Virus record (IMG/VR): IMGVR_UViG_3300047372_000545
Location: 1-25,118 of that record
Reading direction: 5' to 3' (one strand)
DNA length: 25,118 nucleotides
DNA from: a virus
The notes below the pieces were generated by a model. It saw nothing but the letters and a program-made list of their open reading frames with translations, did no database searches and was not told where the DNA came from. Positions 5,055-25,118 of this stretch are shown one piece after another (the stretch's first letter is position 1; the number at the start of each line of letters is the position of its first letter). The position numbers and the translations under genes are program-made.

Positions 5055-8000
5055 CTAACCGTCATATTTTACCAAAAAATTTATTGGATAGTTATTAGTT
5101 ATCTTAATTGGTTTTCCAAGTTTGGCAACTCCCACAAGAGACAACCCATCGTATAACCCAATTGTGGTCGCATGGGGTTTGAGTGAATCTAAGTTTTTTC
5201 CGTTTTTCATTAACCTTTCAAGATTTTGATATTCTTTAAAATCATCAATAATATTAGTTCCGTTTAGCTTTCCCGTCATATTATCCAAAAAACTTACAAT
5301 GTCATTGGCAACTCTTCGTTTTGAGTACTTATTAACCAAACCCTTTATCAACTCTGTACCAGAATTTCCGCGGAAATATCTTAATATCAGTTTAGCATCA
5401 AGTGAGTCGGAGTTTCCATCTTGATTTATGTCAAAGTTTCCGTCTGATTTTAGTTTATTAAGATATGGCAGATATGTCTCATACTCACTCGTTTCAATGA
5501 TATTGGATTCTCTAATAAAAAAGTTCAAAACTACATCTTCTGATTCTGTCAGCAAGACATCTGAATTAGGCCAGTGTGAATCTTGTTCAATTGTTATACC
5601 CGGATAAGTTTCCTCGTATGCAGTCTGCTCAGAGTCTGATTCGAACGCATGGGTTGTTAAAAATTTAAAAATAATAATGATATCGTGTATGTCAAACTTT
5701 CCGTCTTTGTTGATGTCATATGGTATATCGTCCATTACCACCGATGTTGGGTTCGTGCTAAAATTAAACTCATGTGGTTGTACATTACATAAAATTTCTG
5801 TTTCGTGTAATGTGTGACTACCTTTGAATTCTATTTTATATCCAGATATCCCACTCAGTTTCATAAAATCTTCCATGTAAGTGTCACGGAGGTCATTTAA
5901 TACTATAACACCGTTTTTATAAAAAATATTACCAATTTGTGTTTTTCGGTCTTCTGTAATGGTAGGTGAGTCGTATGAAAAAACATGACCATATATGCTA
6001 GGAGTGTTAGTGTGTGTGTAATTGTCTCTGTAATGTATTCTGTCAAAGTTAGCAAAGACACTCTCGGAACTTTGCATGTTTATCTTATCTTCATTAAATG
6101 TAGTGAGTTCGTATAACGGAAATCTTCCAATCACAGGAGAACCCGAGAATGCCAAATCTGCACTTATTGTGACTGAATATCCGAATTGGTGTCTTGCTGA
6201 TAATTTTTGCTTTGTTGATGTGATTGTTTTTAATAGTTTCGAAGAAGTTTTATCTAGTCTAAAAAAATGAACCTTACCCTCGGTCATATTTAAATTTTCT
6301 CCATTTATTGACATAAACTCCTCTGACGAAGTATCTACTCCAATGAAATAATCATCAATTACTAGATTATCATCAATGTCCACCGAAATATTACTCATGT
6401 CTATTGAATGCGACCCTACCATTAAAGTATTTTCGTACAGAGAAATTGAATGACCAAATCTATATGTAATTTGCTCCTCGGATTCTTCCAGTGAATACAA
6501 TTTGTACCCAAACTCTATATCATGTGAATTATTATATAAAAAAACAGAACCACCTTCATTGTCAACTGTTTCATTTTTATAGTTTCTATCAATAGAATCT
6601 CCGATTACGATATATCTATCGTTGACATCAATTGAAATTCCAAATTTAGTTTTTTCTGGTAAATAGTAGTCATACGGATACAACACACTAAGAGAACGGT
6701 CTTTTGGTGTATAATTCAAATCGATATCTGTTTTACTAGTCCAAATAGAATTTCGTTTTATTTTATTTATCAAACTCCATTCGTATTTACACGTTTGCTC
6801 GTATTCATAAACATACACATTTTGTTTTTTTGACGAAGGTGTTCCTATATAGAGTCTATTTTTATATATTTTGACAGTTTCACCAAATCTTTCAGACGAA
6901 TCTGTCGTATCTCCAAATACACAATCTTCAAGTTCCCATGTAGTATCACCCACAGCAAAATTAGGAGTATTATCGTATTCATGTGGTTCGTATCCAGAGT
7001 CAAAGTCTTTAACCTCATCTTTGATTATAGTATCAACTAAAATTTCGTCATCATCAAATGTAATAAGATCAACGGGACACGGTAATCCTTCTATATATTC
7101 ATCACTACCCGATATACAATTTTCATAACCAACGTCCACTATTGATCCTGTTGTAACTTCATATGTGGGAGTTGTAGATTCAATTATACATCCTGATATT
7201 GTATTATACCACCACGTAGTTATTGGTTCGTTGGTTGATCCAGATACAATACATCCCGACAAATGCGATCCTGATAGAAATGTTCCTGATGGCAAGCATC
7301 CAGACACAATATTTCCAGACACAATATTTCCGGAAATAATACTACCAGATATAATCCTATCAGGAATTATATGCTTTATTAAGTCTCCACCCACAATATC
7401 TTTTGTTATAGTTCCGGATGGAAATGTCCCGGAGTCACACTGCTTTTCTATCCGAATATGATGCGGGTCGGAAAATCCAACCAAAGACGATCCGTCTGGT
7501 ATCACACTGTTCACTTTCCATCTGGTTGTATCTTTGTTTATTTTTTTTAATAACTCACCACTCGGATACCCCTTTCGTTTATTATCGGCAATATCGTAAA
7601 AGTATCCATCTGGAACATCAGTCAACCTCATCCAAGGACTACATTGTGTTCTTTTCTTTTTTCTAAATACATAAACCACTCCGGACCCATGCATAGCACC
7701 AGGAGCTCCGATGGCAAGTGTGTCACCATCAACTGAAATTGAATATCCGAACTCCGTGTCGGGAATTCCTTCAATTATGTTGGTAATACCCCAATTATCT
7801 TGACCTCCTTTAGATTTTTCATACATAAAAACATGACCAGTTCTCTGTTCACTTGTGCTACCTCTTATGTGACTCCTCGGAGACCCAATTGCACATATTG
7901 TGTCGGTCAATTGCAGTGATGATCCAAAGTTGTCGTTTTGTGAGTAATTGTTAGCAAGAACAACCCCCCTAATTTCTTTCATAAGCAAATTGTTATGGTC

Positions 8001-9086
8001 ATGTCCTGATTCAGTTGCTAAACCATTTTGACTAAATGGGCAATAGAACTTACGAATACATTTGAATTTACCGGTGCTTTTTTCTTTTTTAAACAAAACG
8101 GCACTACCAGATTGAGATTCTTCAATTGCAGTTTCATCAACAGACGAACCTACTATTAAGTAATCTCTATTTGATTCTGTTGTTTTTCCAAAATAAAAGG
8201 GGTTATCTGTGTCATGTGCTTCGTGATCACACACACCGTCATCGTAGTCTATTCTTTTTATGTCCGAAAATGTATAATCGTCTGTTATTAAATTCGTATA
8301 ACCATCATCTTTAATTTTTATAGTATCAAACGATGAACTATTATCAACCACCACCACGGAATCATTTTTGATTCTATCTCCAAAGTTTTTCTGTGATATT
8401 TCAATTACTGTTATTTTATCGTCAAGCACACGTCTTTCAATGCGTCTGCCACTGTATATATCACCTTGGTCTATATCGTCTATCACAGTTGGGTCGTGAT
8501 ATTCTGCACTCTCTACACCAAACAACATAAGTGGATTTTTTATACTTAGTTTTTTATTACGATTAAAATCAAAATGTTCTACAAAATAGTCATTATAAAA
8601 TAAATGTTTAATATTACTATATATAAGTCGTTGATATGTCCCATCCCAGTTAACCAACTCTTTTGATGAATTGTACTTAGTGTGATCTATAGGATAAAAC
8701 GTTCCTGATATGTTGCTTCCTTCCCGTGTTCTAAGTTTCAACTTATTTGGATCATCGTATTTCAAGTCTTCGGCAGATACCTGTATACCATTCTCATATA
8801 GAACCAGTGAATCATTAGAAAGTTTTTCTACAACATAATCTTCAATATTAAAAGTTTGTTTTCCACATACATTTACACTTTTTTTAACAATACTCTCAAG
8901 TATCTTATTAACCTGTTCGCAATTTTTATTTTCATAAAGTACTTCGTGTGTGGTTTTATTTTTTATGTTATATACATCATGCTCTAATAAGATTGAATCC
9001 AGGTTGTCGATTGTAGAAAATGACCACCCTTTGAACGCAGTGAACGGCCTCACGGTCTTATCCGAGCTCTTGATTCTTTTTATCAT
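5055..9086 (-). CDS. Large virion protein with FG-GAP propeller, S-G pentads and split dockerin repeats
   Basis: A 1343-residue protein, probably an exterior tail or fibre component. About seven FG-GAP/integrin-alpha-like repeats are visible near residues 298, 386, 445, 731, 813, 876 and 963, for example FGYSISVDGDTLAIGAPG and FGHSISLYENTLMVGSHS, each followed by a G-x-V-x-x-Y/F strand; this suggests a seven-bladed beta-propeller. Between repeats three and four lies an insertion of about 250 residues with eight tandem S-G pentads at 578-617. Residues 1053-1115 contain a module (IGNIFYKNGVIVLND to FNFSTNPTSV) that I recognise from marine phage virion proteins. Two dockerin/EF-hand calcium loops follow, DINKDGKFDIHD at 1124-1135 and DINQDGNSDSLD at 1219-1230. 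The last 37 residues (TTIGLYDGLSLVGVAK...) match the end of the neighbouring 492-residue protein. The ATG has no obvious ribosome binding site. Role in surface binding is inferred. Confidence 0.8.
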   Translation of the reverse strand: MIKRIKSSDKTVRPFTAFKGWSFSTIDNLDSILLEHDVYNIKNKTTHEVLYENKNCEQVNKILESIVKKSVNVCGKQTFNIEDYVVEKLSNDSLVLYENGIQVSAEDLKYDDPNKLKLRTREGSNISGTFYPIDHTKYNSSKELVNWDGTYQRLIYSNIKHLFYNDYFVEHFDFNRNKKLSIKNPLMLFGVESAEYHDPTVIDDIDQGDIYSGRRIERRVLDDKITVIEISQKNFGDRIKNDSVVVVDNSSSFDTIKIKDDGYTNLITDDYTFSDIKRIDYDDGVCDHEAHDTDNPFYFGKTTESNRDYLIVGSSVDETAIEESQSGSAVLFKKEKSTGKFKCIRKFYCPFSQNGLATESGHDHNNLLMKEIRGVVLANNYSQNDNFGSSLQLTDTICAIGSPRSHIRGSTSEQRTGHVFMYEKSKGGQDNWGITNIIEGIPDTEFGYSISVDGDTLAIGAPGAMHGSGVVYVFRKKKRTQCSPWMRLTDVPDGYFYDIADNKRKGYPSGELLKKINKDTTRWKVNSVIPDGSSLVGFSDPHHIRIEKQCDSGTFPSGTITKDIVGGDLIKHIIPDRIISGSIISGNIVSGNIVSGCLPSGTFLSGSHLSGCIVSGSTNEPITTWWYNTISGCIIESTTPTYEVTTGSIVDVGYENCISGSDEYIEGLPCPVDLITFDDDEILVDTIIKDEVKDFDSGYEPHEYDNTPNFAVGDTTWELEDCVFGDTTDSSERFGETVKIYKNRLYIGTPSSKKQNVYVYEYEQTCKYEWSLINKIKRNSIWTSKTDIDLNYTPKDRSLSVLYPYDYYLPEKTKFGISIDVNDRYIVIGDSIDRNYKNETVDNEGGSVFLYNNSHDIEFGYKLYSLEESEEQITYRFGHSISLYENTLMVGSHSIDMSNISVDIDDNLVIDDYFIGVDTSSEEFMSINGENLNMTEGKVHFFRLDKTSSKLLKTITSTKQKLSARHQFGYSVTISADLAFSGSPVIGRFPLYELTTFNEDKINMQSSESVFANFDRIHYRDNYTHTNTPSIYGHVFSYDSPTITEDRKTQIGNIFYKNGVIVLNDLRDTYMEDFMKLSGISGYKIEFKGSHTLHETEILCNVQPHEFNFSTNPTSVVMDDIPYDINKDGKFDIHDIIIIFKFLTTHAFESDSEQTAYEETYPGITIEQDSHWPNSDVLLTESEDVVLNFFIRESNIIETSEYETYLPYLNKLKSDGNFDINQDGNSDSLDAKLILRYFRGNSGTELIKGLVNKYSKRRVANDIVSFLDNMTGKLNGTNIIDDFKEYQNLERLMKNGKNLDSLKPHATTIGLYDGLSLVGVAKLGKPIKITNNYPINFLVKYDG
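7236..7355 (-). repeat. Eight tandem 15-bp units encoding S-G pentads
   Basis: Exactly eight consecutive 15-bp units encode pentapeptides of pattern hydrophobic-hydrophobic-S-G-(S/N/C/T), for example IVSGN. The central units are nearly identical in DNA and the outer ones diverged. The unit length is a multiple of three, so copy-number change would keep the frame. Looser S-G pentads continue on both sides (FPSGT near residue 555, TISGC near 630). Confidence 0.8.
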
Positions 9087-9124: not shown

Positions 9125-10603
9125 TTAAAAATCTAATTTTACTTTAATAAGAGCCTCGGAATCAAATGTTTTTAATATAGGTCTGCTCATCTTAGCAACT
9201 GCCACCAACTCATTATCACGGTTATATAAACCAATGGTAGTTATATAAACACGTGGGTCTTCAATAAAAGTATCGTGGCGTATTCTACCCAAATAATTAT
9301 CAAGTTCAGCATTTGCTCTGCTGGCCAGTGTTCTTGCTTCATACCCCTGATAAACAAATGATGGGTTATTGCTATAATTAAAGTCAGTATTTTTGATTCT
9401 GATAAAATAATGCTTTGATGGAACAAGTTCCGTGCTTCTACATTCAAATTGTCTACCTAATTGAAGTGCATCAAACAACTTAATAAAGTTTTGATGATTT
9501 TTATCACCACCTGCACGTTTTAGTCTTTGTTGACCCGAGTCTCCCTCGTTCCATGTAGACGATCTATTTATAGGATATTCTGTATCAGTTTGGTCAAATT
9601 CTTCTACACTTCTAACATTACCCACCTCATCTTCAAACCTCGGGTTTATTTCTCCAAACCAAGAAAATCTTGCTCCTTCATTTTCTTCTTTGACATAGTC
9701 AGTTGGTATTGGATTTCCAAGTGCTTCGTGTTTTGTTACGGCCGTATCTAAACCTTCACACAACTGATCTGCAATAGCCCGTGTGTTTAAAACTATTATA
9801 CCCAAGTCGGGATACACTAAACCGAATCCAATATTTTTATCAGGTGAATATCTTATATCAGTATTCGATGCATCATAAAAATCAGATGGTTCGGATGTCA
9901 TTCTTATTATATCCGAGTCATCATTATTATATCGGTCAGAATTAAATGTTTTTACTAAATCAAACACACGACCAAATTGAGGTGACGATGATACGAAATT
10001 TAAAGAAGTTCCAAAGATACTGGAATCTTGAAATGCGACTCTATAACTAATTTGATCATTAACTGACACCCCAAGTGTAAATAAAAAGTTTCCTTCATCT
10101 ATTCTCTCTTTCATCCTGGATGTTGAAAAATTTATAAAATGACAATAATCTGCATCATATCCTACAAATGAATTATTTACTTTACGAGTGAATGTAAATC
10201 GTTTATCATCGGGATTTAATAAAATATTTTTGTATTGTGAATATACATTTTTTGTTATTTGTGGGGTCTTGTTGTTATGTGCAGAGTTTATAGGACTTCC
10301 ATATCCATTTACATGGCCGTACGATATTGAAAATTGTTGTTCTGCTCCCTGATTAAACAACCCAGCAATATGCACCTCTTCTTGGTACACGTCCATGTAA
10401 TAATCCTCTTTACTCGGAGTTGTCCAGTTATCTTGAATGTCTTGAGATGTCTGTGCAGTTGACAATGGTGTTTTCTGTTTTTCTTCGTCATAAAAAAACT
10501 CAGAAAGTTCTGATGTATTTTCTCCACTAAACAGACCATCGTGTATTGTAGTAACCCTACCCGATACGGTATCTGTTGTATCTAGTTCTTTAAAAATGGC
10601 CAC
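9125..10603 (-). CDS. Conserved marine-phage-type structural protein
   Basis: A 492-residue protein of the kind found in the tail gene clusters of marine T4-like phages. I recognise its C-terminal layout: an FIRIKNTDFNYSNNPSFV segment near residues 396-413 and a terminal module ITTIGLYNRDNELVAVAK from about 453 to the end. No enzymatic motif, signal or membrane segment is seen. The terminal module and the NYSNNPSFV segment recur in the 1343-residue protein encoded next, where they are separated by a dockerin-bearing insertion, so the two proteins probably share an attachment or assembly domain. The start codon is GTG, 2 bases after the stop of the upstream gene, with ATAGGG as a plausible ribosome binding site. 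Structural role is inferred from neighbours and family resemblance. Confidence 0.75.
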   Translation of the reverse strand: MAIFKELDTTDTVSGRVTTIHDGLFSGENTSELSEFFYDEEKQKTPLSTAQTSQDIQDNWTTPSKEDYYMDVYQEEVHIAGLFNQGAEQQFSISYGHVNGYGSPINSAHNNKTPQITKNVYSQYKNILLNPDDKRFTFTRKVNNSFVGYDADYCHFINFSTSRMKERIDEGNFLFTLGVSVNDQISYRVAFQDSSIFGTSLNFVSSSPQFGRVFDLVKTFNSDRYNNDDSDIIRMTSEPSDFYDASNTDIRYSPDKNIGFGLVYPDLGIIVLNTRAIADQLCEGLDTAVTKHEALGNPIPTDYVKEENEGARFSWFGEINPRFEDEVGNVRSVEEFDQTDTEYPINRSSTWNEGDSGQQRLKRAGGDKNHQNFIKLFDALQLGRQFECRSTELVPSKHYFIRIKNTDFNYSNNPSFVYQGYEARTLASRANAELDNYLGRIRHDTFIEDPRVYITTIGLYNRDNELVAVAKMSRPILKTFDSEALIKVKLDF

Positions 10604-19551: not shown

Positions 19552-20795
19552 CGTTTAACCTTAAATTTGACATTGTCTTCGTGAATTTTAACTTGGTTTG
19601 GTGATTCAACCCTTATTTCAAAATAATAAATTCTGTCAATTGAAAGACACCCAAAATCAAAATCAAAATAGTGACCGTGACCGTTACAACTTATCCTTGT
19701 GTACTTATCATATCCAAGAATTCTTTCCTTTGTATCTGCATCAATTACAGAATAGTACATGGGGTGGTCTACGAAATTACTATCAGTATACCTAGATTTA
19801 TTTGAAAAGCTTTTAACTGGAAACTTATCTCTTACATTAACCTTCATTCTGAGCTGTTCTCTCACAGATATGTCTGTTGTTAATCCAGTGATTGAAATAG
19901 ATATATTGTCATGGTGTATAAATTTTATATTGGGCTTTCTGTTTGATATAGTATATTCAATACTCGGAGACGAGTCACAATTTGCAGAATTTATACTACT
20001 TCCACTTACAGAATTTATACTACTTCCACTTACAGAATTTATACTACTTCCACTTACAGAATTTATACTACTTCCACTTACAGAATTTATAGGTTGATTA
20101 TCATCATAGATACACTTAATAGATTCCACAACATCACACCCACACGGATTAAATACATAGTCATTGGTTGAAATTTTCAAATATGGTTGGTATATAGTGT
20201 TTGTGTCTTTAGAGAAAAAATTAAGTTTTCCCGTGAAAGCTGTTGTTTCGTTGGTAAACTTTATTACAAGTCCGTTGTTATCCATGTGACCGGATAACCA
20301 TAGATCTACATATTCCGTTATATCAAATGCGACATCCGAAGTTCTGGTATCAAACTTATATGCAGGTATTGTGGTTATTCCATATAATTTATCAAGTTCA
20401 TGCCTTGAATAAAAGTCTCCTCCTGTATTATCCCAATCGGTTTTTCCGTCGGATGTTATCCAGGTTGCTCCCGAAGCTTCTATATTATCAAACCTACGAC
20501 CTACTCCCTCACTCCATGTTGTTTTCATAGGAAAAACTTCAAGTTCTAAACTACCCGTTAGTTCAAGTGTTTCGGTTATCTTTAATTGTAAAAAAAAGTC
20601 AGAACCAGTTAGTTGTGTCTGAGACGAGAAATTACCTGTATCAAATTTCATAAGCAGTCTGCTCATGTGGTGGCCTCGTTCTTCTGTAAATGTATTTTCG
20701 AGTTCTAATATTTCATCGTATCCAGTATTTAAGTTTTCAATGCTTTTGTGTCTATAGATTGTTGCATCAGACTCTGTATATAAAAATGTGTTCAC
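19548..20795 (-). CDS. DNRLRE-like beta-rich structural protein with INSVSGSS repeats
   Basis: A 415-residue protein. Residues 1-215 resemble the DNRLRE/TGF-beta-propeptide-like fold used in extracellular structural proteins: ESDATIYR at the start, then RLLMKFDTG, LELEVFPMKTTWSEGVG, VAFDITEYVDLWLSG and LVIKFTNET, with TIYQPYLKIS closing the domain. Residues 234-268 consist of four copies of INSVSGSS plus a partial copy, probably a flexible linker. A separate C-terminal beta-type domain follows. The start is GTG at 20795, overlapping the gp6 stop (GTGA) and preceded 8 bases upstream by a strong GGGAGGG ribosome binding site. Tight coupling to gp6 argues for a baseplate-attached component. The DNRLRE call is by pattern only. 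Confidence 0.7.
   Translation of the reverse strand: MNTFLYTESDATIYRHKSIENLNTGYDEILELENTFTEERGHHMSRLLMKFDTGNFSSQTQLTGSDFFLQLKITETLELTGSLELEVFPMKTTWSEGVGRRFDNIEASGATWITSDGKTDWDNTGGDFYSRHELDKLYGITTIPAYKFDTRTSDVAFDITEYVDLWLSGHMDNNGLVIKFTNETTAFTGKLNFFSKDTNTIYQPYLKISTNDYVFNPCGCDVVESIKCIYDDNQPINSVSGSSINSVSGSSINSVSGSSINSVSGSSINSANCDSSPSIEYTISNRKPNIKFIHHDNISISITGLTTDISVREQLRMKVNVRDKFPVKSFSNKSRYTDSNFVDHPMYYSVIDADTKERILGYDKYTRISCNGHGHYFDFDFGCLSIDRIYYFEIRVESPNQVKIHEDNVKFKVKR
19984..20091 (-). repeat. 24-bp tandem repeat, four full copies and a half
   Basis: Units at 19984-20007, 20008-20031, 20032-20055 and 20056-20079, then 12 bases of a fifth. Three copies are identical and the 19984 copy differs in its first base. 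Each encodes INSVSGSS. The near-perfect identity implies recent expansion, and the unit length preserves the reading frame. Confidence 0.95.
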
Positions 20796-22771
20796 GAAGC
20801 AACCCTCCCGACTACATCACGATCAGGGAACTTTAGTTCAAATATACACGGGTCAACCGATGGGTATATTATCTTATTATATGTGGCAGACTCTATGTTA
20901 TATTCGTTTTCTGAGTAATTTCCATCGTTTATAGTTTTATTATAAATTCTCAAATTCACCACTGACTTAACACCATAGATTTTAGATATTTCAAGTTCAA
21001 GTTCACTTAATTCTATTGACTGACCTATGCTCCAGTTTTCAATATTAAAATACGTTTTGATTCCGTCAAGTACACTATCTAGAACTTCTATATTAGAATA
21101 GTTTTTAAACACAGAAATCTCTACATCAACACCTATGTTTACAATAAACGCATCCGTGATATTAATACCATCTGTAAGTAGTTTATATTGACCAATGTAA
21201 GTTCTCAGGTTTTTATATACCAACTCGTTTGGTGTAACCAAGTTCTTATTGTTATTGTAACTCAAAATATATAAGTTTATAGCAAACGGATTGTTAACTT
21301 CTCCATATACATTTGTTAATCCGTTTGAAGATATACTTTTAGATGCCTCACCTAAATTATTTATAAAATCAAGTTGAGTTTTGCTATCCAAAATTCCATC
21401 AGGAGATACGTATGCCTTTGCAATACTACCGAACTTTACTGGCATAGAATATGCACGGATTACGTAATCTTCACGTGTAACCGCTCTATTTTGGGCAGCG
21501 AAATGGGCAAGTGCATTTCTTCTAATCTCCTCCGATGACTCAGGGCCCTTTCCTCCGAGTGCAGGTTCCGGGTTGTTTACCCGGACACTTCCTTTAATCG
21601 TGTTTAGTATTGTTCGTTCGTTTGGTTCTAAAAACTCAACTTGATCACCCGTTTTTATGCTTGTAATATTCGTAAGTGTGTTGGACGGAACATTTGAATT
21701 TATTCCACCACCCGCATAATATTCAATTGTGAGTGTTCCTGTGGGTGCTTCTCCGTAACTCTTTGTTTTTAAGAAATTGGCAGGATCAATTGCGACCTCG
21801 AATGAGGCAGGTGTGTCAAGTATTCTACCCACATTATTTAAGTTTGGTATAATAATTTCATCATCAATCTTATCTGCCCCCGCACCAAACTCGATGGTGG
21901 TGGTATTATCAGAATTTACTCGGGTGGTAAATCTTTTTGAAGTTCTTAAAAACCGCAACACATATGGAGTAGCTTCTGCATATGTTGAATAAAATGGATT
22001 TTTTTTAAAACTATTTTCTTCTTCGATTAGAACCGTGTCGTTAGCCAGATATGGTACTTGGTAGTATTTATTTCCATTTTCGTCTTTTATGCTTACTATT
22101 TCTAACACATCAGGTTCAACCAAAGTAATTTCGTAAAATTCTTCTTTTGTGCGGATCGTAACCTCTCTTACTTTTTTTGATCCCGCCGACGCCATTACAA
22201 GTTTTTTAAGTAAATAAAATGTAGGTTGTCCTGAATTATCATCTCTACTAAAAACAGAAACCTCCCGTGGGTTCGCAGGAGTGTCTTCGTAAAAGTTTAC
22301 CGCATCAAGTGTTCTAAAAATAGTAGTTGTGGTATCAGATGATTGTACCTCCATTCCGGCCTGTATATTTAATGAATATTTGAAGTCAGGTTCAATTTCA
22401 CCCGTAGACGGATCGGTCACCGATGGAACTAACTGAAACACTTCCAACTCTACAAGTGCGGCCGCAGATGTTTTTGGTGTATATCCTAGATAATTTGCAA
22501 GTGTAACTATGTTTTTCCTCTCTTCTGCGTGTTGCATGAATCCCTCTTTAAACTGATAGTCAATATAATAAGATAAAACATCCCCTACATAACTGGCCAG
22601 TTCAATAAACATCATACCCGTTGAGTTTTCACTAAAGTCTTTATAGCTCTTTGGAAAATAAGATTTTGCGTACTCAACCAAGTTTTTCTTAAATGAGTTA
22701 AAGTCTTTTCCGAGATAGTTGATATCTCTTGATGTAGTTTTTATTTTTTCAGAATTTCCTATGTCACTCAT
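20792..22771 (-). CDS. 6: Baseplate wedge protein gp6-like (J family)
   Basis: A 659-residue homologue of T4 gp6 (660 residues) and the wider baseplate J family. The N-terminus has the conserved NYLGKDFNSFKKNLVEYAK and ELASYVGDVLSYYIDYQF helices. The centre carries the NRAVTREDYVIRAYSMP motif near residue 425-440, typical of J-family proteins. The C-terminal part, with ELSELELEISKIYGVKSV, is the usual wedge-binding end. In T4, gp6 dimers form the inner ring of the baseplate and clamp the wedges; the same role is expected here. It starts 1 base after the gp25 stop, and its own stop overlaps the next gene's GTG start, a layout consistent with stoichiometric expression of wedge parts. Confidence 0.93.
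   Translation of the reverse strand: MSDIGNSEKIKTTSRDINYLGKDFNSFKKNLVEYAKSYFPKSYKDFSENSTGMMFIELASYVGDVLSYYIDYQFKEGFMQHAEERKNIVTLANYLGYTPKTSAAALVELEVFQLVPSVTDPSTGEIEPDFKYSLNIQAGMEVQSSDTTTTIFRTLDAVNFYEDTPANPREVSVFSRDDNSGQPTFYLLKKLVMASAGSKKVREVTIRTKEEFYEITLVEPDVLEIVSIKDENGNKYYQVPYLANDTVLIEEENSFKKNPFYSTYAEATPYVLRFLRTSKRFTTRVNSDNTTTIEFGAGADKIDDEIIIPNLNNVGRILDTPASFEVAIDPANFLKTKSYGEAPTGTLTIEYYAGGGINSNVPSNTLTNITSIKTGDQVEFLEPNERTILNTIKGSVRVNNPEPALGGKGPESSEEIRRNALAHFAAQNRAVTREDYVIRAYSMPVKFGSIAKAYVSPDGILDSKTQLDFINNLGEASKSISSNGLTNVYGEVNNPFAINLYILSYNNNKNLVTPNELVYKNLRTYIGQYKLLTDGINITDAFIVNIGVDVEISVFKNYSNIEVLDSVLDGIKTYFNIENWSIGQSIELSELELEISKIYGVKSVVNLRIYNKTINDGNYSENEYNIESATYNKIIYPSVDPCIFELKFPDRDVVGRVAS
20803..20809 (-). 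promoter_or_regulatory. Strong ribosome binding site for the GTG-started DNRLRE-like gene
   Basis: GGGAGGG in the sense direction, 7-8 bases before the GTG at 20795 and inside the end of the gp6 gene. It is the strongest Shine-Dalgarno sequence I see in the window and supports the non-ATG start. Confidence 0.6.
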
Positions 22772-22772
22772 T

Positions 22773-23159
22773 TTAAAAATCCAAAGTTAATTGTTGAGCA
22801 GAGTCGGGTATGGAGTTTAATCTAAACTTTATATTAACAGTTACTTGATTGGGTTCATTTGTATAGTCTCGCTCTGACACCACAGATATAATGTGTACCT
22901 CGGGCATCCAAGTTTCTACTGCATCTTTTACTGCATCGTCTAATAAATCGTCTGCGTAATCTTCTGTATTTGCCTCAAATATTATTTCACGCAAATCGCT
23001 TCCATATGAAGGCATCATAGGTCGTTCACCCTTTGCGGTCATTAACAACATTTTTAAGTTTGTAAGACCCCGTTGCATATCAGAATATGTTTGATTAAAA
23101 AATCCGGAATCTCCTTTGGTATAAGGTAAAGTAATTCCAACTGGTACTTTATCTAACAT
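22773..23159 (-). CDS. 25: Baseplate wedge protein gp25-like
   Basis: A 128-residue homologue of T4 gp25 (132 residues), the GPW/gp25 family of contractile injection systems. The family core is visible as LKMLLMTAKGERPMMPSYG at 35-53 followed by SDLREIIFE, with a C-terminal strand pair ending in TVNIKFRLNS. In T4, gp25 sits in the baseplate inner ring with gp6 and gp53 and nucleates sheath assembly; the same role is expected. It overlaps the upstream gene by one base (TAATG) with AAGGGA as ribosome binding site, and is 1 base before gp6. The pairing of gp25 directly with gp6 is a common compact layout in non-T4 myoviruses. Confidence 0.93.
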   Translation of the reverse strand: MLDKVPVGITLPYTKGDSGFFNQTYSDMQRGLTNLKMLLMTAKGERPMMPSYGSDLREIIFEANTEDYADDLLDDAVKDAVETWMPEVHIISVVSERDYTNEPNQVTVNIKFRLNSIPDSAQQLTLDF

Positions 23160-23603: not shown

Positions 23604-25118
23604 TCACCCAGATATAAATATTCTCTCACTTAATAATGTTGGTAATCTTGCTCTTAAACTTGCAAGTTGTCCCTGTTGAGCAGGTCTAGATGTTGTAATA
23701 TATGGATCGTGGTGGACATGGGATGACAACCAACCACACAAATCATTTAACCACGCAGTTGTGCAATCTCCCTTTAGTGTCGGGTGGCACTCTGATGTAT
23801 ATCCACCCAAATGCACACTGGGTGTTGCAAATGAAATGTGAGCATCACTTCTAAGCACTATCCTGCTCTTTGCGTCCATAGTGATTTCGTCATCGGTTGT
23901 AACAAAAAATTTCTTCTTTGAAAAAATTCCAGTCTCTTGAGTTTTCGAGGATATTAACACTCGTTCGGAATTTAATATTATTTGATTACCCACAAGTGCA
24001 GGTAGTTGCTTTCCAAATATAGCACCAGAATCATTCTTTTTAAGAATGCTTTTTTCACTTTTTTCAAGTTCCTTGTTAAACTCCTCTTCATATACACGTG
24101 TGGCATCTGCTATAGCAAGATCCACTTCATCTGTATTTTTTAGTGTAGTTAAGTCTTCTTTATCAAGTAGTGACACGGCATTTAAGTCTGCGTTTTCAAG
24201 CACAGTTCCTTTTAGTGAGTCACGTGTTATTTTTTCACCTGACATGAATGATGTAACTTCCGTTGAATTGGAATGTACGGGTTGCACATCTCTATTAATA
24301 ATGTTTTTTATATTCAACTTCTCTTTTTTAGAGTTTCCAAGAAAATTTGGTATGTCTGAGTCTGTGATTGATATGTTGCTTTTTAAGTTATTGCTTCCTT
24401 TAAACGCAGTTGGATTTCCACTAGAAAACCCCCCTATATTAAAAGTTCCCGTTGTTGAGTTTTTGATATCACTAACCGAAGTTCCAGGAGCACCTGTTGT
24501 CAAGTTGGCAAATGTTCCGGTTGGATTTGTGGGTTGGGGTGTGGTTGACTTCTGCTTTTCCCGGAACAATCCAGTCAGTGGATCAAATTTAACCTGTGCT
24601 ACGTTTTCTGCGTCCTTGGTCAACCCTATATTAGTTTGACCAAATGTCTTAGCAGAATCTTGTATAGCACCGAGATCACCCACAAGTGATTTATAGTTCA
24701 TATCAAAACCAGAATTATTTCTTGCATATGAATTGTATGTACCGTCTTGCATGAAAGTATCTCCAAGTTGTTTTGTCAACTCCATATCAGAAAGAAGTTT
24801 GTTTCCTTCGTTTCTAAATGTATCTACTAAATTATTTTTATATTCCAATTTATTTACCCAATCACATAAATCAAATAATAAATTATCTAAATTGAAACCA
24901 CCAAACCCACCAAAATTGAATTTCAAGTTTCTCAGTCTGTCAAACAAACTCATCAAAAGTGCAAGTAATGTTAAATCAATTCCGATTGAAAGTAACCAAC
25001 CGAGTTTATTTTCTGTTTTAGAATTTCCACTCTTTCCATCTACACTCGCACATATTGATTTTAAACCGAACGCAGCCAACTTAAAAACTTTAAACATCGG
25101 GCTATCATCTGATGAAAT
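23604..25118 (-). CDS. Baseplate hub/spike-like protein, 5' end outside the window
   Basis: An open frame runs through the right edge; the first Met at 25097 is preceded by seven more in-frame codons and no ribosome binding site, so the true start is probably beyond the window. Counting from that Met, residues 32-52 are a hydrophobic helix (LGWLLSIGIDLTLLALLMSLF). Residues 150-340 are low-complexity, Thr/Asn/Ser-rich. About 369-440 show repeated short strands (NQIILNSERVLISSK, ITMDAKSRIVLRSDAHISF) like the gp5/VgrG-type spike stalk. The end (LSSHVHHDPYITTSRPAQQ, then LRARLPTLLSERIFISG) is a tail I recognise from hub-type proteins of marine T4-like phages. It would form or cap the central spike. 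The family call is moderately sure. Confidence 0.65.
   Translation of the reverse strand: MSSDDSPMFKVFKLAAFGLKSICASVDGKSGNSKTENKLGWLLSIGIDLTLLALLMSLFDRLRNLKFNFGGFGGFNLDNLLFDLCDWVNKLEYKNNLVDTFRNEGNKLLSDMELTKQLGDTFMQDGTYNSYARNNSGFDMNYKSLVGDLGAIQDSAKTFGQTNIGLTKDAENVAQVKFDPLTGLFREKQKSTTPQPTNPTGTFANLTTGAPGTSVSDIKNSTTGTFNIGGFSSGNPTAFKGSNNLKSNISITDSDIPNFLGNSKKEKLNIKNIINRDVQPVHSNSTEVTSFMSGEKITRDSLKGTVLENADLNAVSLLDKEDLTTLKNTDEVDLAIADATRVYEEEFNKELEKSEKSILKKNDSGAIFGKQLPALVGNQIILNSERVLISSKTQETGIFSKKKFFVTTDDEITMDAKSRIVLRSDAHISFATPSVHLGGYTSECHPTLKGDCTTAWLNDLCGWLSSHVHHDPYITTSRPAQQGQLASLRARLPTLLSERIFISG
23612..23621 (-). promoter_or_regulatory. ATATTTATAT motif upstream of the small helical protein gene
   Basis: Same 10-mer as at 5032-5041, located 34-43 bases before the chosen ATG at 23578 and inside the last codons of the hub-like gene (encoding I-F-I). 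The spacing matches that at 5002 and 11271, which is mild support for both the motif and the chosen start. Confidence 0.25.

Follow-up and report, generated by a model that had tools for sequence, protein, structure and literature searches.

A dockerin-related domain with two putative calcium loops splits the C-terminal module of a predicted tail protein in an uncultured phage group

The window analysed here, that is, the whole stretch of 25,118 bases from the IMG/VR virus record IMGVR_UViG_3300047372_000545, encodes a 1343-aa protein whose C-terminal module is split by an insert of about 186 residues carrying two calcium loops of the dockerin/EF-hand type. As far as its sequence tells, the insert is related to dockerins, yet it should not be classed as an ordinary dockerin because the spacing of its loops does not fit (see below). 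The module that it interrupts is common to several proteins of the baseplate/fibre cluster. We consider the chances about even that the insert is a calcium-stabilised, exposed domain for docking or receptor contact on a baseplate or fibre-anchor protein. The coordinates of all the features discussed are collected in Table 1.

All the long ORFs of interest lie on the minus strand of the record. In the direction of transcription, the gene of the gp6-type wedge is followed by those of the 415-, 195-, 2535- (with a laminin-G-like domain), 221-, 492- and 1343-aa proteins, after which come a 274-aa protein, a RuvC-like resolvase, a primase-like protein, an SbcD-like phosphoesterase, a 312-aa protein and the start of an SbcC-like ATPase. 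In all contigs inspected (8/8) the insert-bearing gene occupied the identical slot. It follows the 221-like and 492-like genes and lies downstream of gp25/gp6-like ones, wherever a fragment is long enough to include these, and it precedes a small gene and those for RuvC, primase and nuclease. Given this gene order beside gp25 and gp6, and the annotated fibres and spikes found downstream in the phage immuto, the 1343-aa product would be a baseplate or fibre-anchor protein of the virion. The 312-aa protein (1059-1997), flanked by the SbcD-like and SbcC-like genes here as in L010, L017 and L021, has no Pfam match and looks by eye like a glycosyltransferase. Elsewhere in the window, a perfect 24-bp tandem repeat (19985-20091, 4.5 copies, 100% identical) encodes SINSVSGS repeats in the 415-aa protein, residues 106-205 of which gave a Disaggr_repeat match near threshold.

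In the 1343-aa protein itself Pfam recognised FG-GAP_2 (E 1.3e-20) together with Dockerin_1 above cut-off, and FG-GAP_2 was also present in every insert-bearing relative tested (8/8). The N-terminal FG-GAP propeller is adhesin-like. A 15-bp tandem repeat at 7299-7349 (about residues 580-596) falls within an SG(x)n run (IISGSIISGNIVSGNIVSG...), possibly a small beta-solenoid. The orthologues in L010, L012, L014, L016, L018 and L020 reach ~3,100 residues, with the same C-terminus and a much expanded body.

Table 1. Features of the window and of the insert-bearing protein (residues are those of the 1343-aa protein unless stated).
Feature	Residues	Position in the window	Strand	Basis or remark
497-aa protein		23604-25097	(-)	first in transcription direction; no Pfam match
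gp25-type baseplate wedge		22773-23159	(-)	PHROGs
gp6-type wedge		20792-22771	(-)	PHROGs
492-aa neighbour	module at about 381-492 (own numbering)	9125..10603	(-)	same module without insert
1343-aa protein		5055..9086	(-)	ORF; FG-GAP propeller repeats and C-terminal module with insert
Best FG-GAP_2 repeat	444-474	7665..7757	(-)	Pfam
Upstream half of shared module (GNIFYKNG ... EFNFSTNPTSV)	1050-1116	5739..5939	(-)	profile match to 492-aa family
Insert	1117-1302	5181..5738	(-)	absent at this point from 492-aa family
Putative calcium loop 1, DINKDGKFDIHD	1124-1135	5682-5717	(-)	exact consensus
F-hand helix following loop 1	1133-1149	5640..5690	(-)	AlphaFold2 secondary structure
Conserved segment between loops, WP...D...TESED and helix	1172-1196	5499..5573	(-)	W1172 45/46, E1183 38/46
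Putative calcium loop 2, DINQDGNSDSLD	1219-1230	5397-5432	(-)	exact consensus
Helix following loop 2	1228-1239	5370..5405	(-)	AlphaFold2 secondary structure
Conserved insert tail, two helices	1251-1292	5211..5336	(-)	R1257 44/46, F1283 46/46
Downstream half of shared module (KPHATTIGLYDG...VAKLGKP...)	1303-1343	5058..5180	(-)	profile match to 492-aa family

The original prediction, made from this DNA alone, held that the flanks of the calcium-binding part match the neighbouring 492-aa protein and that this part was inserted into a shared module that existed before it, and both proposals are borne out. The matching flanks are FNFSTNPTSV (residue 1107) against FNYSNNPSFV (408) and TTIGLYDG (1307) against TTIGLYNR (455). 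BLASTP of the two proteins gave E 4e-4, over the downstream half only, and the two C-termini align significantly when profiles are compared, since a comparison that left out the insert columns and set 32 C-termini from the 1343-aa family against 70 sequences from the 492-aa family gave E 4e-18 and a probability of 99.0% over 77 columns. By itself, the upstream flank matched the 492-aa family at 92.6% (E 4.5e-7; reversed control 0.2%) and the downstream half matched it at 97.5% (E 5e-12 over 39 columns); such small profile-profile E-values are rough, and hence reversed or positive controls were used where it mattered. The signature of the module, FN-x-S-x-NP ... TT(I/V)GLY-x-(D/N) ... (V/I)A(K)L-x-x-P with homologous flanks, is found in the 1343-aa protein. 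Relatives with an empty site and a tree in which the inserts form one clade (see below) also argue for an insertion. Short-gap relatives already hold 17-90 residues at the insertion point, so the segment gained would amount to ~100-170 residues and not to the whole 186.

A single-protein search gave one close relative, the locus L003 (80% for the 492-aa protein and 65% for the 1343-aa protein), in which the relative of the latter retains both loops; a single-protein scan with the 1343-aa protein found no relatives and alignment queries were required. The alignment-based searches recovered 8, 80 and 79 viral loci, and the insert-bearing records among them are all uncultured and mostly fragments. 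Across 197 module-bearing ORFs the distance from FN-x-S-x-NP to TT(I/V)GLY is bimodal, being <90 residues in 127 and at least 167 in 70, with no gaps between 90 and 160 residues, and a loop-like motif appeared in just one of the 127 short-gap ORFs. No locus carried more than one insert-bearing protein, and a short-gap paralogue was found on the same fragment in 50 of the 70 insert-bearing loci. In a tree built from the flanks only, all 54 insert rows fall in one clade (SH-aLRT 96), with one change, among insert-free relatives; this is a quick tree of 141 columns, insert columns excluded, and its deep forks are unsure. With all insert rows in one clade, the domain was gained once, and its single origin is clear in this flank-only tree.

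Isolated phages have the module with the insertion site unfilled. In the Microcystis phage Mel-JY01 (WWT39517) the same C-terminal module is found in the same slot of the gene cluster, the insert being absent and FNFTMNP joined to YITTIGLY by a short linker, with a laminin-G-like domain where the 1343-aa protein has FG-GAP. The Flavobacterium phage immuto has two module proteins (QQO92082 and QQO92083) at the same cluster position, both without the insert. When 50,697 phage records were searched with the insert by tblastn, no match appeared, and other phage searches retrieved flanks only. The same domain was sought in 151 Chloroflexota genomes, using a query with no positive control there, and none was detected. 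Among 84,980 bacterial and archaeal genomes the whole module occurred once (L179), on the 3.7-kb MAG contig CANHPK010000273.1, which probably represents phage sequence that ended up in the MAG through binning.

The two loops were predicted to fit the dockerin/EF-hand consensus D-x-N-x-D-G-x-x-x-x-x-D exactly, and they do so at the residues given in Table 1, at a distance of 95 residues from each other. The 1343-aa protein has no further motif of this kind, and 5000 composition shuffles of the protein gave a mean of 0.010 motifs and a P of 0.0002 for two or more. In a non-redundant set of 46 inserts (<80% identical), the loop 1 ligands are kept as D in 43/46 (D1124), 40/46 (D1132) and 43/46 (D1135), the ends of loop 2 (D1219 and D1230) are each found in 46/46, and loop 2 also has N/D at position 3 and D/N at position 5 in 46/46. 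When the ligands are judged strictly, 36 of these 46 inserts have both loops intact and 44 have an intact loop 2; the loop 1 ligands have decayed in several members with the domain still present. Together with the core residues W1172, R1257 and F1283, the ligands are far better conserved than the remainder of the insert. When the loop-1 unit was compared with the loop-2 unit by profile, the probability was 97.3% (E 2e-11 over 29 columns), and on this comparison the two loop-plus-helix units are homologous duplicated F-hands. Because the ligands are conserved, and from what is known of the family, the insert would be expected to bind calcium.

The nearest known structures are dockerins. A profile of 67 inserts searched against the PDB placed them at the top (4fl4 7e-8, 2y3n 2e-7, 2mte and 1daq 4e-6), a search with a single insert having given nothing significant. 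Dockerin_1 scored 25 bits with the whole protein and 30.7 with the insert (cut-off 22.9), the matched stretch being the second repeat only; it was found by Pfam in 59 of the 67 inserts, and in 28/28 insert-bearing versus 0/4 insert-free C-termini. The likeness to type I dockerins (PF00404; 4fl4, 2y3n, 1daq, 2mte) lies in the duplicated unit of a calcium loop and one helix (F-hand), in the ligand spacing D-x-N-x-D-G-x5-D and in the post-loop helix signature (I/L)x(R/K)Y(F/I/L); both loops conform to D-x-[ND]-x-[DN]-G-x5-D and each leads into a helix, the helices being taken from AlphaFold2. Unlike type I dockerins, the phage insert has conserved helical sequence both between the loops and beyond the second, it sits within another domain instead of at the protein end, and its carrier is a phage protein with no cohesin known for the insert.

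An ordinary type I dockerin has about 60-70 residues with the loops about 32 apart. The insert is not compact in this way, and its loops are separated by 72-100 residues in 44 of the 46 non-redundant members and by 198 and 228 in two with a nested LysM. This spacing is indeed abnormal for a dockerin, as had been noted for the 95 residues seen here, the published linkers having at most 45 (PMC2930009). The original proposal is borne out on both these points, the homology with dockerin half-repeats (profile E 7e-8) and a spacing well outside that of known dockerins. The longest linkers described between calcium repeats, 37-45 aa, are those of the group 1 dockerins of Ruminococcus flavefaciens (PMC2930009), and the solved group 1a/1b dockerins of this species have two calcium ions bound despite the longer loop (PMC5429695), a precedent that makes pairing of the phage units across a longer linker plausible. 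Compared with group 1, the phage linker is longer and has its own conserved residues, and no sequence similarity between the insert and these dockerins was found outside the loops.

Other possible parallels are more distant. An EF-hand-like calcium site has been reported in the phage lysin LysGH15 (PMC4022735), which differs in that its site belongs to the CHAP domain, in an enzyme that lyses cells, and not to a duplicated dockerin-like unit of a tail-cluster protein. PHROG 10782, an 88-residue family of unknown function, matched weakly over loop 2 and the tail (E 0.011, not significant). One paper on a phage tail protein uses the word dockerin, meaning the carbohydrate-binding-module template 2wz8 (PMC5967307), and our literature search, of incomplete coverage, brought up no account of a phage tail protein with a dockerin-like domain.

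AlphaFold2 modelled the insert with medium confidence (pLDDT 70.4, pTM 0.63). Apart from the helices that follow the loops, it predicted a helix before loop 2 and none before loop 1, two helices between the units and tail helices at residues 1260-1271 and 1281-1292. Fold searches (Foldseek) with these medium-confidence models returned no dockerin or EF-hand relative and no match, and direct-coupling analysis of the insert (47 effective sequences) gave a signal dominated by phylogeny. The middle segment and the tail scored a probability of only 0.3-3.4% when compared by profile with the EF-like units. A third, degenerate EF-hand at W1172 was considered and rejected, since by profile the middle segment does not resemble either of the loop units. 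In three members (L017, L019 and L136) an extra segment of ~100-130 residues with similarity to LysM (best E 8e-11) lies between the dockerin-like units, making a domain within a domain within the tail module. Since LysM is nested in the linker of these members, the insert is likely to be exposed at the surface.

We propose that a dockerin-like helical domain was inserted once into an exposed loop of the C-terminal module, in an ancestor from which a large group of tailed phages descends. Its two duplicated loop-plus-helix units (F-hands) would bind calcium, and the W...TESED helix pair between the units, as well as the S-R...DI..YL and F after them, would be parts of one and the same domain, which, stabilised by calcium, would serve as a docking or receptor-contact surface on a protein that also has an adhesin-like FG-GAP propeller. 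The conservation of the ligands would be equally expected under a purely structural calcium brace, which is the main rival. Here, calcium would merely stiffen the loop of the fibre-anchor module or an assembly contact made with a neighbouring baseplate protein, aiding the folding of the protein and its survival outside the cell, with no role in recognition. We regard such a brace as quite possible without holding it to be probable. The ligands and the three core residues stand out above the rest as a folding core would, the insert has been retained across one clade after a single gain, and the searches for a partner domain came up empty. However, insert-free relatives with the same module manage without it, the nested LysM suggests an exposed, ligand-facing site, and the loop 1 ligands decay in several members in which the domain is not lost.

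A recognition role could also take the form of true dockerin-cohesin docking, the domain plugging into a cohesin of a virion protein or of a host surface scaffold, and a cohesin-like partner on the virion or host had in fact been suggested. That suggestion is not supported, as no cohesin passed the Pfam cut-off in 27 related contigs (fragments) and the 492-aa family is not cohesin-like. Sub-threshold cohesin matches do recur in this family, in 4/70 members at E 0.13 or worse (e.g., L096 and L072, 10.0-11.1 kb), L098 and L099 also have matches below the Pfam cut-off, and cohesin is the sole Pfam family matching more than one member. In profile-profile comparison, 23 cohesins against the 492-aa family gave 0.2%, equal to the reversed control (cohesin positive control 99.1%), by which the 492-aa neighbour was ruled out as a cohesin. 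With loops spaced far from those of any cohesin-binding dockerin, we judge this docking very improbable in spite of the homology with dockerin half-repeats. Quite improbable too is a calmodulin-like switch of four EF-hands, with those at 1124 and 1219 intact and those at ~1172 and ~1257 degenerate, acting as a sensor that reshapes the baseplate on host contact. It would agree with a weak profile match to the sarcoplasmic calcium-binding protein 9l5m (positions 10-150, E 1.1e-4), with calmodulins matched by the insert profile at E 0.02-0.07 and with the AlphaFold2 helix preceding loop 2, but only two units are recognisable, the middle and end segments are unlike either hand, no helix precedes loop 1 and dockerins score far higher with the insert profile. 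Finally, it is hardly credible that the ORF is a fusion or chimera whose two loops arose by chance; nothing was found in favour of coincidence or of an assembly artefact, and both are refuted by the shuffles (P 0.0002) and by the recurrence of this insert, at one and the same site, in 70 ORFs from independent contigs.

A bolder version of the docking or receptor-contact surface would be a stretched, dockerin-derived plug that docks in a calcium-dependent manner onto a host surface protein or an exchangeable component of the virion. We think this unlikely; if true, an interface of the dockerin type would exist apart from multi-enzyme complexes, with a linker open to modules such as LysM. In spacing, setting and carrier alike, the insert extends what has been known of the dockerin repeat, and it marks one loop of a tail module as a place where phages have accommodated unrelated binding domains. 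Its carriers are a large group of uncultured phages with relatives among those of Flavobacterium, Microcystis and Rhodothermus, and for this group two putative calcium loops with fixed aspartates would provide a simple handle on calcium-dependent adsorption.
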